This document shows, piece by piece, positions 40,871 to 45,296 of a DNA stretch of 64,000 bases. The translations under genes were made by a program, and so were the position numbers. The number at the start of each line of letters is the position of its first letter. The stretch's first letter is position 1. Origin of the DNA: an uncultured Gammaproteobacteria bacterium (GTDB lineage: Bacteria > Pseudomonadota > Gammaproteobacteria > Pseudomonadales > Pseudohongiellaceae); NCBI GenBank assembly GCA_903853385.1, contig CAINTJ010000142.1, positions 62,001-126,000 on the forward strand. The letters are read 5' to 3'. The notes under the pieces are model-generated. The model did no database searches. It was not told where the DNA came from and saw only the letters and a list, made by a program, of their open reading frames with translations.

Positions 40871-41884
40871 TCAAGCGCCGGAATAGAAACTCCTGATGGC
40901 CGCCACGGTGGCGAGCACATCCGCCTTGTCGACATCCAGATGGGTGACCATGCGGATGGTGGTGCCAGGGTCTACCAGGATGCCATGGGAATGCAGATAT
41001 TGGGTCAAAGCCTCGGCAGTACCTGCCTTGGGGACCATGTATACCATATTGGTTTGAACCCAGGCGGTATCAATAGTGACTGCATCTACTGTGCGCAAAC
41101 CGGCCGCCAGCAATGCTGCATTGACGTGATCATCTGCCAACCTTGGCACGTTGTGTTCCAGGGCATATATACCGCCAGCGGCGATGATGCCCGCCTGCCG
41201 CATGCCGCCGCCCAGCATTTTACGCCAGCGCCGAGCTTGTTTGATCAGCTCCGCGCTGCCACACAACACCGAGCCGACTGGCGCACCCAGGCCTTTGGAA
41301 AGACACACCGACACAGTATCAAAGGGTTCGGCAATTACCTGCACATCAACACCGGTTTTCACGGCGGCATTGAAGATCCTGGCACCGTCGAGATGGCTGG
41401 CCAGCTTGTGTTCACGCGCCAGCCTGGCGGCGTCCTGCAGGTAGGCCAGCGGCAACACCCGGCCACTGAAGGTGTTTTCCAGACACAGCAAACGGGTGCG
41501 GGCAAAATGCACGTCATCCGGCTTGATGGCCGCCTGGATCAGGTCGAGTGCTATGGTGCCGTCTGCACTGACCGGCAGTGGTTGTGGCTGGATGCTGCCA
41601 AGCACGGCCGCACCGCCGCCTTCGTATTTGTAGGTATGGGCGTCCTGCCCCACCAGATATTCGTCGCCACGCTGGCAATGACACAACAAGGCCAGCAGGT
41701 TGGATTGGGTGCCGCTACTGACAAACAGGGCGGCTTGCTTGCCTAGCATGCGCGCCGCCAGTGTTTCCAGTTGTTGCACGGTAGGGTCATCGCCCCACAC
41801 ATCATCGCCGACGGCTGCCTGCGCCATCATCTGTCGCATGGCTGCCGAAGGACGCGTGACAGTATCGCTGCGCAAGTCAATCAT
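40871..41884 (-). CDS. ltaE: Low-specificity L-threonine aldolase
   Basis: This PLP enzyme cleaves L-threonine or allo-threonine to glycine and acetaldehyde. The 337-residue protein begins IDLRSDTVTRPSAAMRQMM. It has GDDVWGDDPTV, the PLP-contact ALFVSSGTQSNLLAL, HLDGARIFNAA and the lysine site SVCLSKGLGAPVGS. ATG at 41884 fits the family N-terminus; 41908 would add eight residues. It starts 10 bases after the stop of the alpha/beta hydrolase gene and probably shares its transcript. Confidence 0.94.
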   Translation of the reverse strand: MIDLRSDTVTRPSAAMRQMMAQAAVGDDVWGDDPTVQQLETLAARMLGKQAALFVSSGTQSNLLALLCHCQRGDEYLVGQDAHTYKYEGGGAAVLGSIQPQPLPVSADGTIALDLIQAAIKPDDVHFARTRLLCLENTFSGRVLPLAYLQDAARLAREHKLASHLDGARIFNAAVKTGVDVQVIAEPFDTVSVCLSKGLGAPVGSVLCGSAELIKQARRWRKMLGGGMRQAGIIAAGGIYALEHNVPRLADDHVNAALLAAGLRTVDAVTIDTAWVQTNMVYMVPKAGTAEALTQYLHSHGILVDPGTTIRMVTHLDVDKADVLATVAAIRSFYSGA

Positions 41885-41894
41885 GCGGACTTGC

Positions 41895-42944
41895 TCACAG
41901 CTCGGCATAAACAGCCATCGGACGCACTATTGTCAGCAGCTGCTCCAGGAAGGATTCGCGACTGGTGAATATCACGTTATGGCCGGCATCCGGAATCTCG
42001 ATCAGGAGTTTGTCCGGCGCCTGCATCTGGTCGAAATACTCACGCACTACACTGGTGGTGGTCAGCAAATCGGCCTGGCCCTGGATGAGCACAATCGGGA
42101 CCGAGAAGCGTGTGGCCAGTGCCGGCATGTCCTCTTTATCCATTGCCGCGCCCAGCAACCGGTAGGAAAACTCCTCACCGTCATCCAGATACTGCGGGAA
42201 TTCCGGCATGGGCAGCTGCATCCAGGTTTGCTGATCTTCCTCGGTGGGCGGCAGCGCCGGTGGCTCCAACTCGCTTTCCCAGTGCTCTATCCGGTCGTAC
42301 TCGCTTCTGCTGGGCCAGGGCGGAGGCCCCAGCGCACTTAACTCCTGCATTGCCTCTTCATTCGATATGGCCAATTCCAGCAACGTGGGATAGGCGGCTT
42401 CCAGCTGGCGTGGCAGATTGGTCACCTGGCCGGTACCTACATAGACCGAGAACAGTTGCGGCGCTGAGTCAATCATGTGGATGCCGAGAATCGAACCCCA
42501 GGAATGACCCAGCAACACCAGTTGTTGTTTGTGCAGATGGGCGAGCACGAACCGGCTTATTTCAATGCCATCTGCGGCGATCTGCTCGACTGACATCGTG
42601 TCAGCAATTGAGTCCCCATGCTTCTCGTAAGTCTTGCCTTCGCCGCGCTGGTCCCACATGACGACAGTGAAGTGGCGCTCCCACGAACGGAATATCGGAG
42701 TTTCCGGCATCGTGGACCCGCCCGGCCCGCCGTTCAGCCACAGCAGCACCGGATTGGCAAGGTTGTCACCCCTGATTTGCACCCACTGGTCAATGCCTCC
42801 GGCGCGCACATACATCGCCTCATGAATGCCCGTGACCACGGGCTCACCGGAGGTATTGCCGCCTACATCATCTTGCGCAATGGCAGACAACGGCAGATTG
42901 ACCAGCATAAATACAGCGATGACTTGCAGAACCACCCAACGCAC
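41895..42944 (-). CDS. Exported alpha/beta hydrolase (proline iminopeptidase-like)
   Basis: A signal peptide (~23 residues, LSAIAQ) precedes an alpha/beta-hydrolase fold. The oxyanion loop is LLWLNGGPGGSTM, the nucleophile elbow GHSWGSILG, a late acid QGQADLLTTTSV and the catalytic His AGHNVIF. HGGPGG-type loops are characteristic of the proline iminopeptidase/prolyl hydrolase family S33. The substrate may be a periplasmic peptide, but other small esters are possible. It is followed closely by ltaE on the same strand. Confidence 0.88.
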   Translation of the reverse strand: MRWVVLQVIAVFMLVNLPLSAIAQDDVGGNTSGEPVVTGIHEAMYVRAGGIDQWVQIRGDNLANPVLLWLNGGPGGSTMPETPIFRSWERHFTVVMWDQRGEGKTYEKHGDSIADTMSVEQIAADGIEISRFVLAHLHKQQLVLLGHSWGSILGIHMIDSAPQLFSVYVGTGQVTNLPRQLEAAYPTLLELAISNEEAMQELSALGPPPWPSRSEYDRIEHWESELEPPALPPTEEDQQTWMQLPMPEFPQYLDDGEEFSYRLLGAAMDKEDMPALATRFSVPIVLIQGQADLLTTTSVVREYFDQMQAPDKLLIEIPDAGHNVIFTSRESFLEQLLTIVRPMAVYAEL

Positions 42945-42979: not shown

Positions 42980-44554
42980 TTATTGAGCTTGCAGATGCAA
43001 GCGGGTATTTACCATACGTAATGTAGCGAGTACTGCGGCATAAACCTGGTTGGCATGCACACCACGCGTGCGCAGATTGCGCTCGTCGCCCACGGCGGCC
43101 CAGGTGATGGTGCATTCAGTAAGAGCACCCGGTTTGCCACCTTTCGGGATGCGCACACTGTAGTCAACCAGCTCAGGCATTACCAAGCCCAGGCCGGCCA
43201 GGATGCGGGTGAGCGCATCGATGAATGCATCATAACCGCCATTGCCAATGCCACTTTGCCGGTATTCAGTGCCATTGATCTCGACCTGCAAATCCACCTG
43301 CGACTGGGCATCAAGATTGCTGTGGATCTCACAGTCAAGCAAACGAATGTGCTGGTAATCATTGCTCTCCAGCACATCGGCGATGATGAAAGGCAGGTCG
43401 TCAGCCGTGATGGTTTCCTTGGAATCACCCAGACTAACGACACGTTGCAGCACTTTCTTTAGGTTGTCAGGTGACAGCGTAATGCCCAGTTCTTCGATAT
43501 TTTTCAAGACCGAGGCTTTGCCGCTGAGTTTGCCGAGCGCATAGGTGCGCTTGCGGTCAAAACGTTCAGGGCTGAGCTGGGTTTCGTACAGCCCCCCTTT
43601 CACATCACCGTCGGCATGAATGCCTGCCGTTTGTGTGAACACATCAGCACCGAGGATCGGTTGGTTGGCAGCCACCCACTTGCCGGAGAAACGTTCCACC
43701 AACTTGCTGACTGCCGCCAGATGGGTTTCATCAATCGCGGTACGCACACCCATCTTGTCTTTCAGCACCACGGCGATCTCGGCCAGGGAAACGTTGCCTG
43801 CTCGCTCGCCCAGGCAGTTCATTGTGCAATGCAAGGTGCTGATGCCGGCTTCCACTGCCGCCATGCAGTTGGCAGTGGCAAGACCGTAATCATTGTGTGG
43901 ATGAAAATCAAACTGCAGGTGCGGAAAACGACTGCGCATGTCGGACAGTGCACGATAAACCTCGGCCGGGCTCATTACGCCGAGCGTGTCCGGCATCATG
44001 AAATGCTGGATGCCACTGGTGCCGATCAGATCGAGCAAACCAAATACATAGCCCGGGTTATCCTTGTAACCGTTGGACCAATCCTCCAGATAGGCATTGA
44101 CGCGCAAGCCGTGATCACGCGCGTACCGGACCGTCTGCATGATATCGGCGGCATGTTGCGGCAAGGTTTTGCCGAGCTGCTGTGTGCAGTGTTTTTCACT
44201 GCCTTTGGTGAGCAGATTGAGCACCTTGCCACCGGCCGCTACGATCCAGTCCACGCTGGGTTTGCCATCGACAAAGCCCAGTACTTCAACCTGTTGCAGA
44301 TGGCCGTGCGCTGCTGCCCATTCGGTAATGGCTCTGACTCCGGCCTGTTCACCCGCCGATACCCGGGCCGAAGCCACTTCAATGCGATCAATTTTCAGCT
44401 GTTCGAGCAAGGCCTGGGCAATAGTGAGTTTTTCGCTGGCAGTGAAGGCCACGCCCTGGGTTTGTTCACCATCCCGCAGCGTGGTATCCATAAACGCCAC
44501 ATAGTCAGGCAGGAGCCTGGCCGGGTCGTTTTGATTGATGCCTGTGTTACTCAA
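42980..44554 (-). CDS. cimA: (R)-citramalate synthase, Leptospira CimA type
   Basis: The enzyme condenses pyruvate and acetyl-CoA to citramalate, the start of threonine-independent isoleucine synthesis. The 524-residue protein has catalytic R27-D28 in MDTTLRDGEQ, metal ligands in FHPHNDYGLA, and a C-terminal regulatory domain (GGYDAFIDALTRIL, YSVRIPKGGKPGALTE). It aligns by eye with Leptospira CimA far better than with LeuA. The three residues that make the Leptospira enzyme pyruvate-selective (Leu81, Leu104, Tyr144) are matched by L92, L115 and Y155. TTG at 44554 is the start: AGGAGA lies 6 bases upstream. Confidence 0.9.
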   Translation of the reverse strand: MSNTGINQNDPARLLPDYVAFMDTTLRDGEQTQGVAFTASEKLTIAQALLEQLKIDRIEVASARVSAGEQAGVRAITEWAAAHGHLQQVEVLGFVDGKPSVDWIVAAGGKVLNLLTKGSEKHCTQQLGKTLPQHAADIMQTVRYARDHGLRVNAYLEDWSNGYKDNPGYVFGLLDLIGTSGIQHFMMPDTLGVMSPAEVYRALSDMRSRFPHLQFDFHPHNDYGLATANCMAAVEAGISTLHCTMNCLGERAGNVSLAEIAVVLKDKMGVRTAIDETHLAAVSKLVERFSGKWVAANQPILGADVFTQTAGIHADGDVKGGLYETQLSPERFDRKRTYALGKLSGKASVLKNIEELGITLSPDNLKKVLQRVVSLGDSKETITADDLPFIIADVLESNDYQHIRLLDCEIHSNLDAQSQVDLQVEINGTEYRQSGIGNGGYDAFIDALTRILAGLGLVMPELVDYSVRIPKGGKPGALTECTITWAAVGDERNLRTRGVHANQVYAAVLATLRMVNTRLHLQAQ

Positions 44555-44610
44555 AGGTGCTCTCCTGAAACTGCTGCCAATTCTCGCTGGTTTTTGCGCT
44601 GCCATAAACG

Positions 44611-44635
44611 AAAAAACCCGCTGGAGGGCGGGTTT
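44611..44635 (-). terminator. Attenuator terminator upstream of cimA
   Basis: On the minus strand AAACCCGC (44635-44628) pairs perfectly with GCGGGTTT (44621-44614), leaving a six-base loop (CCTCCA), and a run of six T follows (44616-44611). It lies 56 bases before the cimA start and 21 bases after the leader stop. The 5' arm can instead pair with GCGGGT at 44669-44664 in the end of the leader frame, giving an antiterminator. Confidence 0.85.
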
Positions 44636-44656
44636 CTACATCCTGACTGGATGCTG

Positions 44657-44737
44657 TTATCCGACCCGCAGACAAACCCCGGTAATAATATTGCCGGTAA
44701 TCATGCGGGGGGCGAGCAGCAAGGTGTGTATATGCAT
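44657..44737 (-). CDS. Attenuation leader peptide of cimA
   Basis: A 26-codon frame (ATG 44737, TAA 44659-44657) encodes M-H-I-H-T-L-L-L-A-P-R-M-I-T-G, then N-I-I-T-G-V-C-L-R-V-G. It contains three consecutive Leu, four Ile (three of them ATT, including a pair) and two Val codons. This is typical of branched-chain amino-acid leaders, and the frame is too short to be found by usual gene callers. CCCGC (44709-44705) can pair with GCGGG (44669-44665). GCGGGT (44669-44664) can pair with ACCCGC (44633-44628) of the terminator. No Shine-Dalgarno sequence is visible before the ATG, which is the main weakness. Confidence 0.75.
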   Translation of the reverse strand: MHIHTLLLAPRMITGNIITGVCLRVG

Positions 44738-44837
44738 GCGTGCAGTTTTGGCGATTTAAGGGCCTGAAGTCAAGCAAGCCTTGTCCTGGCTGTGTAAACT
44801 TGCACTTCTGTTCCTGCTTGTTTATCAGTGAGAAACC

Positions 44838-45296
44838 ATGGTTATCGCCCCACTCTGGCGCCGGCTGGCCGCCATCATTTATGACACCGTGCTGTTGATC
44901 GGCATCTGGATCGTGGTCGGGTTTTTGGTGCTGCGGGCGTTTGGCATTGAACAGGCACGCACGATTGATGGCGAGGTGGTGGTATTGAATCCGCTATATC
45001 AATACACCTTGTTGGCCGCAATGCTGGGCAGCGCCTTCATGTTCTTCGGCTGGTTTTGGACCCACAGCGGCCAGACCCTGGGCATGCAAGCGTGGAAACT
45101 CAAGGTGCAGAACCGGGATGGCTCAGTCATCAGTTGGCGGCAGGTGGCGCTGCGTTTTGGGGTCGGTCCGCTGGCACTGGCACCGGTGGCACTTGGTTAC
45201 TTGTGGATGCTGGTTGACCGCGAGCGCCGCACCTGGACCGATCTGGCATCGCATAGTGTCGTAGTTACCATCAGCAATTTCCCGGGAGCAACTTGA
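44838..45296 (+). CDS. RDD-family membrane protein
   Basis: The 152-residue protein has three to four hydrophobic segments and the RDD pattern: APLWRRLAAIIYDTVLLIG (R and D of the motif), QTLGMQAWKLKVQNRDGS, and DRERRTWTDLASHSVVV. RDD proteins are small membrane proteins of poorly known function, some proposed as sodium/proton antiporters. It is divergent from the cimA leader, with about 100 bases between them. It ends 4 bases from the convergent TraB gene. Confidence 0.9.
   Translation: MVIAPLWRRLAAIIYDTVLLIGIWIVVGFLVLRAFGIEQARTIDGEVVVLNPLYQYTLLAAMLGSAFMFFGWFWTHSGQTLGMQAWKLKVQNRDGSVISWRQVALRFGVGPLALAPVALGYLWMLVDRERRTWTDLASHSVVVTISNFPGAT

Follow-up and report, generated by a model that had tools for sequence, protein, structure and literature searches.

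The (R)-citramalate synthase gene cimA in the 64,000-nucleotide stretch of DNA analyzed here (the window) is very probably controlled by a ribosome-mediated transcription attenuator that senses charged tRNA-Ile, and the same device appears to stand before the isoleucyl-tRNA synthetase gene ileS. At cimA, such a switch would control entry to the citramalate route of isoleucine synthesis. The leader, its promoter, the spacing, the pairing segments and the terminator are conserved by comparison, and from their arrangement we infer a transcription start at the leader ATG, ribosome stalling, and read-through. The kind of mechanism is already known; its targets, its compact form and its link to the replacement of a pathway appear new in the mainly open-access literature searched.

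The leader and its target gene in the window

An initial annotation of the window had described an Ile-containing, 26-codon frame on the minus strand ahead of a perfect 8-bp terminator with U6, and each of these elements was verified in place. The leader peptide ORF (MHIHTLLLAPRMITGNIITGVCLRVG; 44657..44737, minus strand) comprises 26 codons plus TAA, with its ATG at 44737 and the TAA ending at 44657; it is probably leaderless and carries Ile at codons 3, 13, 17, and 18. The Ile17–Ile18 codons (ATT ATT; 44684..44689, minus strand) are the proposed stall point, and the Ile cluster falls here in most of the 39 leaders compared below. Segment 2 (GCGGGTCGG; 44661..44669, minus strand), the putative 5′ arm of an antiterminator, begins 17 nt past the first base of the last Ile codon. 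Segment 3 (AAACCCGC; 44628..44635, minus strand) is assigned by folding and by pairing in the alignment both as the 5′ arm of the terminator and as the 3′ arm of the antiterminator, and segment 4 (GCGGGTTT) with its U-run (44611..44621, minus strand) completes an intrinsic terminator, the whole hairpin with T6 spanning 44635–44611. The four short motifs that the annotation had numbered as segments 1 to 4—CCCGC (44709–44705), GCGGGT (44669–44664), ACCCGC (44633–44628), and GCGGGT (44621–44616)—are all present. When folded, the window terminator reached −13.4 kcal/mol and the 2:3 antiterminator −18.9 kcal/mol (p 0.01 vs. a shuffled upstream arm).

The gene that follows, cimA (42980..44554, minus strand; 524 codons), most likely starts at the TTG at 44554, with AGGAG at 44566–44562, and not at the ATG at 44605 given in a mechanical ORF list. 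Its product had been called a Leptospira-type citramalate synthase, a designation that the structural and family matches support, though the family score falls short of the NCBIfam cut-off. Leptospira interrogans CimA is the closest solved relative, with both the catalytic and the C-terminal regulatory parts matched: 3BLE is the best PDB match (361 bits; the next enzyme reaches 180), the C-terminal part aligns with the regulatory domain 3F6G, a LeuA_dimer domain is present, and no other characterized synthase of the superfamily matches better. Residues aligned to Leu81, Leu104, and Tyr144 of 3BLE are conserved if the chain numbering is taken to be offset by a 12-residue tag; we take these to be the pyruvate-pocket residues by which the Leptospira enzyme selects pyruvate. 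The best NCBIfam match, NF042433 (E 7.7e-188), scores 625 bits against a curated equivalog cut-off of 950, so the exact substrate is less certain and “Leptospira-type” denotes similarity only. A role for CimA as the leucine enzyme was ruled out, since a separate long 2-isopropylmalate synthase (LeuA) is encoded elsewhere in the same genome (G000:C30).

On the same strand, cimA is followed (40871–42944) by genes for an alpha/beta hydrolase and a low-specificity threonine aldolase, and at locus L113, too, a frame resembling threonine aldolase is found downstream of cimA. Upstream, the neighbor is a divergent RDD-family gene (44838..45296, plus strand), and on the minus strand the leader has no gene directly ahead of it that would read into it. 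The terminator thus belongs to the cimA transcript, and assignment to an upstream gene was rejected.

Comparison among related genomes

The relatives compared were metagenome assemblies of uncultured Gammaproteobacteria and Pseudomonadales, and CimA orthologues were found in 35 of 57. In three related genera of one family (g1–g3, window included), an Ile leader, a GYGGGTT element, and a strong terminator with a U-run precede cimA at 19 of 19 loci, i.e., those whose upstream DNA is assembled and readable; coming from three related genera, these loci are not independent events. Their leaders have 15–28 codons, 3–6 of them Ile (e.g., MKNTTFTMNFRTSAGIIITGVALRVG, MKISKTHTKGIIIRL, MSTTLTGKSIIIIQHFQVG, MNKATTIIKGIIIQR). 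Alignment of the regions upstream of cimA in related genomes, a check that the initial annotation had proposed, found leader codons and pairing segments 2–4 conserved. No such leader was found before cimA in the examined loci of g4–g8, of families f12 and f13, or of the two methanotroph relatives, Methyloglobulus and Methylomagnum; nearly all g4–g8 genomes have a full IlvA, and their cimA lacks the leader. A model of these leaders gave one real site in the window (44737–44610, minus strand; E 6.8e-11, an optimistic value with the window leader in the training set), and neither the window nor 12 related loci matched any Rfam family, the T-box model included. Judged by this comparison of sequences, the observation in the window is far more than chance.

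A covariance model of 15 cimA leaders, run over 137 genomes of the family, gave a second strong match in nearly every g1–g3 genome. This second site lies directly before ileS, where 20 leaders with the same architecture were found in g1–g3 (in the window's own genome, MKYAQTFAIYRFIIQHRTVG at G000:C53). The Ile attenuator originally annotated at cimA is thus supported there, but its scope had been drawn too narrowly, as the same architecture precedes ileS. From a single genome, and with no Shine-Dalgarno sequence before the leader, one could have read the arrangement as an ordinary terminator next to a chance ORF, e.g., belonging to the tail of a transcript from upstream or to a leader that is not translated. 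We regard this as highly improbable: the upstream gene is divergent; the frame, Ile run, spacing, and promoter are conserved in 39 leaders at two loci; and neighboring genera with the same cimA gene have none of these elements.

All 39 leaders are short ORFs upstream of the terminator with tandem codons for the product amino acid. Over the set, Ile makes up 22.8% of residues, Leu 3.0%, and Val 4.1%, and the last Ile is itself preceded by Ile in 32 of 39. Synonymous Ile codons are mixed (ATT 109, ATC 27, ATA 15), which indicates that the amino acid, and not the DNA, is conserved. The description of a leucine/isoleucine leader accordingly stands for the Ile codons, which are conserved, and fails for leucine: the Leu3 run occurs in the window leader only. 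Leucine or valine as signal was ruled out, as their codons are not conserved across leaders, and isoleucine is, by the composition of the predicted peptides, the only residue sensed.

These data bear directly on the model first proposed for the window, a classical four-segment attenuator sensing Leu, Ile, and Val, in which a 1:2 hairpin enforces termination when the leader is untranslated. That model can call on the Leu3 run and two Val codons of the window leader and on the ability of CCCGC to pair with GCGGGT, but we consider it improbable given that Leu3 is confined to the window leader, that Leu and Val are rare overall, and that segment 1:2 pairing is no better than shuffled over the 39 leaders (median p 0.44; 5 of 39 below 0.05; window p 0.16). 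Segment 1 thus drops out of the order initially annotated and the 1:2 hairpin is ruled out; a Shine-Dalgarno-driven leader within a 5′ UTR, the other classical hallmark, is likewise lacking. Without a conserved segment 1, what is left resembles a switch with two states, antiterminator 2:3 or terminator 3:4, which ribosome position would set.

The two alternative pairings are well defined across the set. Pairing of segments 2 and 3 holds in 90.8% of cells (alignment A2) and falls to ≤57% when slid by one to three columns; pairing of segments 3 and 4 holds in 98.8% of cells over 34 leaders and falls to ≤68% when slid likewise. An outer C–G pair becomes U–A in the terminator, with the matching G to A change in segment 2, in part of the set; compensatory changes are few and restricted to the outer pair because the GC core scarcely varies. 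Folding gave terminators of −13 to −19 kcal/mol and antiterminators mostly of −11 to −21 kcal/mol. The two predicted structures are mutually exclusive through their common arm, although the ileS leaders of g2 have a weak antiterminator (about −11 to −12 kcal/mol, p 0.08–0.26) and folding recovered none in L110.

Spacing follows the same logic. In 38 of 39 leaders segment 2 lies 14–18 nt from the last Ile codon, so that in these 38 the control codons are placed where a stalled ribosome would leave the antiterminator arm free; the remaining leader, L110, has one more Ile behind its cluster. In contrast, the stop codon falls between 10 nt past and 6 nt short of the point where segment 2 begins, and segments 2 and 3 are 29–62 nt apart (39 leaders). 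The constant feature is therefore what a stalled ribosome must leave free.

The leader promoter in the window consists of a −35 box TTGACT (44768..44773, minus strand) and a −10 box AAAACT (44744..44749, minus strand) separated by an 18-bp spacer, with a 6-nt GC-rich discriminator up to the ATG; TTGAC(T/A) is conserved in 19 of 19 cimA leaders. The end of the −10 box of the best-scoring promoter lies 6–9 nt from the ATG in 39 of 39 leaders, with a mean promoter score of 10.0 against 4.3 for shuffled DNA. Transcription usually starts ~7 nt past the −10 box, which places the predicted mRNA 5′ end at the ATG or within ~3 nt of it, and the leader mRNA is probably leaderless. No Shine-Dalgarno sequence precedes the leader ATG; this had been counted as a weakness of the initial annotation, but it is what a probably leaderless mRNA would explain. 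The promoter position in all 39 leaders also argues against a transcription start downstream of 44640. The discriminators (44743–44738 in the window, and those of the other 38 leaders) are mostly GC- or C-rich. For ppGpp-activated amino acid promoters, AT-rich discriminators are expected, and stringent control of opposite sign is possible for the leader promoters.

In the mechanism we propose, transcription would begin at the leader ATG, and a ribosome would bind the bare 5′ end and translate the leader. With Ile-tRNA-Ile plentiful, the ribosome would reach the stop codon and cover segment 2, the 3:4 terminator would form, and cimA would be off. With Ile-tRNA-Ile short, the ribosome would stall on the Ile run and leave segment 2, which begins 14–18 nt downstream (approximately at the ribosome edge), free to pair with segment 3, such that RNA polymerase reads through into cimA. 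Stalling at the Ile codons that frees segment 2 for segment 3 had already been suggested for the window; the conserved 2:3 and 3:4 pairings and the conserved spacing are consistent with that part of the suggestion, while segment 1 has no place in it.

The switch and the isoleucine route

The threonine deaminase regulatory domain (PF00585) has no match in g1–g3 genomes and is present in most other relatives. With a wider model, no threonine deaminase was found in g1, in g2, or in one g3 genome, and four of the five g3 genomes have only a 405-residue form. Since the full-length enzyme, and mostly any form of it, is absent, citramalate is likely the sole or main isoleucine route in g1–g3, as far as gene content can tell, and the switch sits on the route that remains where IlvA is missing. 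This suggests that regulation follows metabolic replacement: with threonine deaminase gone, citramalate synthase becomes the isoleucine entry point and the Ile switch stands before it. Two genomes (G016 and G047) encode CimA but lack the leader, and neither of the two models detects an IlvA in them; the switch is thus not required for a CimA-only life. The same leader was not found before full-length ilvA in g4–g6 and three other families.

One IleRS was found per g1–g3 genome, the product of the switch-bearing ileS. It scores 1116 bits to the cytoplasmic IleRS 9W01 vs. 338 to the bacterial 1FFY, is eukaryote-like (type 2), and is only ~30% identical to the IleRS of sampled genomes outside g1–g3. 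This only IleRS of g1–g3 (G000:C53:30556-33069; L091, L170) is eukaryote-like, and the other genera sampled carry the usual bacterial type, an apparent replacement across the whole clade as judged by sequence similarity.

Known attenuators and wider occurrence

Attenuators of gammaproteobacterial branched-chain operons were reportedly described by Vitreschak et al. in 2004. The cimA switch resembles them in having a short leader rich in the product amino acid and an antiterminator/terminator switch before a biosynthetic gene. However, it would sense Ile only, its target is cimA and not acetolactate synthase or LeuA, it has no 1:2 hairpin, and its leader is probably leaderless. Among Ile/Val/Leu leader attenuators, ilvG, ilvI, and leuA are listed for Shewanella (PMC2659441). 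Leaderless leader peptides have precedents in trpL of Sinorhizobium meliloti (PMC7298713) and the ilvBNC leader of Corynebacterium glutamicum (PMC11857589). As in those systems, the mRNA 5′ end would be at or very near the leader ATG, here from a predicted start; unlike those systems, which involve Trp or branched-chain leaders in Alphaproteobacteria and Actinobacteria, the present one involves Ile, cimA, and ileS in Gammaproteobacteria. T-box control of ileS occurs in Firmicutes. It has also been described in Actinobacteria (PMC1262725). With the T-box our ileS leaders would share the sensing of tRNA-Ile charging in the 5′ region of ileS, but the T-box binds tRNA directly, whereas here a leader peptide would be translated, and no Rfam family is matched.

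According to the initial annotation, attenuation of a citramalate synthase by an Ile leader is not known to have been described, and our search of the mainly open-access literature found no paper that links citramalate synthase with a leader peptide attenuator. To our knowledge there is no report of a leader attenuator on Leptospira cimA. Within the portions of the mainly open-access sources covered, no paper links isoleucyl-tRNA synthetase with leader-peptide attenuation in Proteobacteria. If true, this would be, as far as the literature searched extends, the first known leader-peptide attenuation for either the citramalate route or an isoleucyl-tRNA synthetase. Being so compact, with short leaders and neither a 5′ UTR nor a 1:2 hairpin, the device lends itself to testing what ribosome-mediated attenuation minimally requires.

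With a model of 34 cimA and ileS leaders, 391 genomes belonging to the order and 369 belonging to the class were scanned. Several matches were plain terminators, and single matches therefore need reading. Only in g1–g3 was cimA seen as a target. The same form stands before two further ileS-like genes and before short ilvA genes of ~350 residues (L187–L192, L194). The two of the latter that were examined (L189, L191) encode just the PLP domain and lack the C-terminal domain that binds Ile, as if attenuation, to go by the predicted leaders, had replaced feedback inhibition. It is also found before genes with no known Ile role, encoding P-loop proteins weakly similar to PRK08118, SnoaL/DUF4440 proteins, and one GNAT protein; also among the matches, identified by eye, are a leader that precedes a thrA-like gene and one that contains Trp. 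In this way, sequence model R2 points to candidates for tRNA-Ile control among genes whose function is not known.

Specifically, at L193, L196, L199, L200, and L214, in several families, leaders ending RIIIIP or RIIIIIP, a GGTGGG element, and a terminator precede a small kinase-like P-loop gene. At L197, L198, L204, L206, and L211, Ile-containing leaders with the same pairing segments precede SnoaL/DUF4440-type genes, and at L205 a GNAT gene.

The scan tentatively raises a broader picture, possible but doubtful at present, of a portable leaderless tRNA-Ile sensor (Ile run, GYGGGTT, terminator) placed before whichever gene limits Ile supply or charging—cimA and eukaryote-like ileS here, short ilvA elsewhere, together with several genes whose Ile role is unknown—and of a wider tRNA-Ile stress regulon in Gammaproteobacteria. 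The same targets could be taken to mean that ribosome-position attenuation is induced mainly by something other than Ile starvation, e.g., inhibition of IleRS or of the ribosome during decoding of the Ile run, with the gene answering translation stress; the architecture before a synthetase gene, and elsewhere in the class before small kinase-like P-loop, SnoaL/DUF4440, and GNAT genes without a known Ile role, would fit. Yet cimA and the short ilvA encode the committed Ile step, which fits plain end-product control, and any IleRS inhibitor would act via the same charged-tRNA signal, so we give this alternative little weight beside an attenuator that senses charged tRNA-Ile.

A separate observation concerns ilvB. 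Upstream of this gene, between a TTGACA/GATAAT promoter and ilvB, 10 of 11 g1 genomes have a highly conserved structured RNA of ~235 nt (L180 = G000:C15:7983-8218, minus strand; also L176–L179 and L219–L227). Two further weak matches were found in g3; among 185 genomes of the class, the window's own was the only one with a match. It had no Rfam match even at E 1, and the 6S RNA is located elsewhere in the genome. When five sequences are compared, both partners differ in 12 of the 57 predicted pairs, and the element is a candidate for a new regulatory or small RNA.
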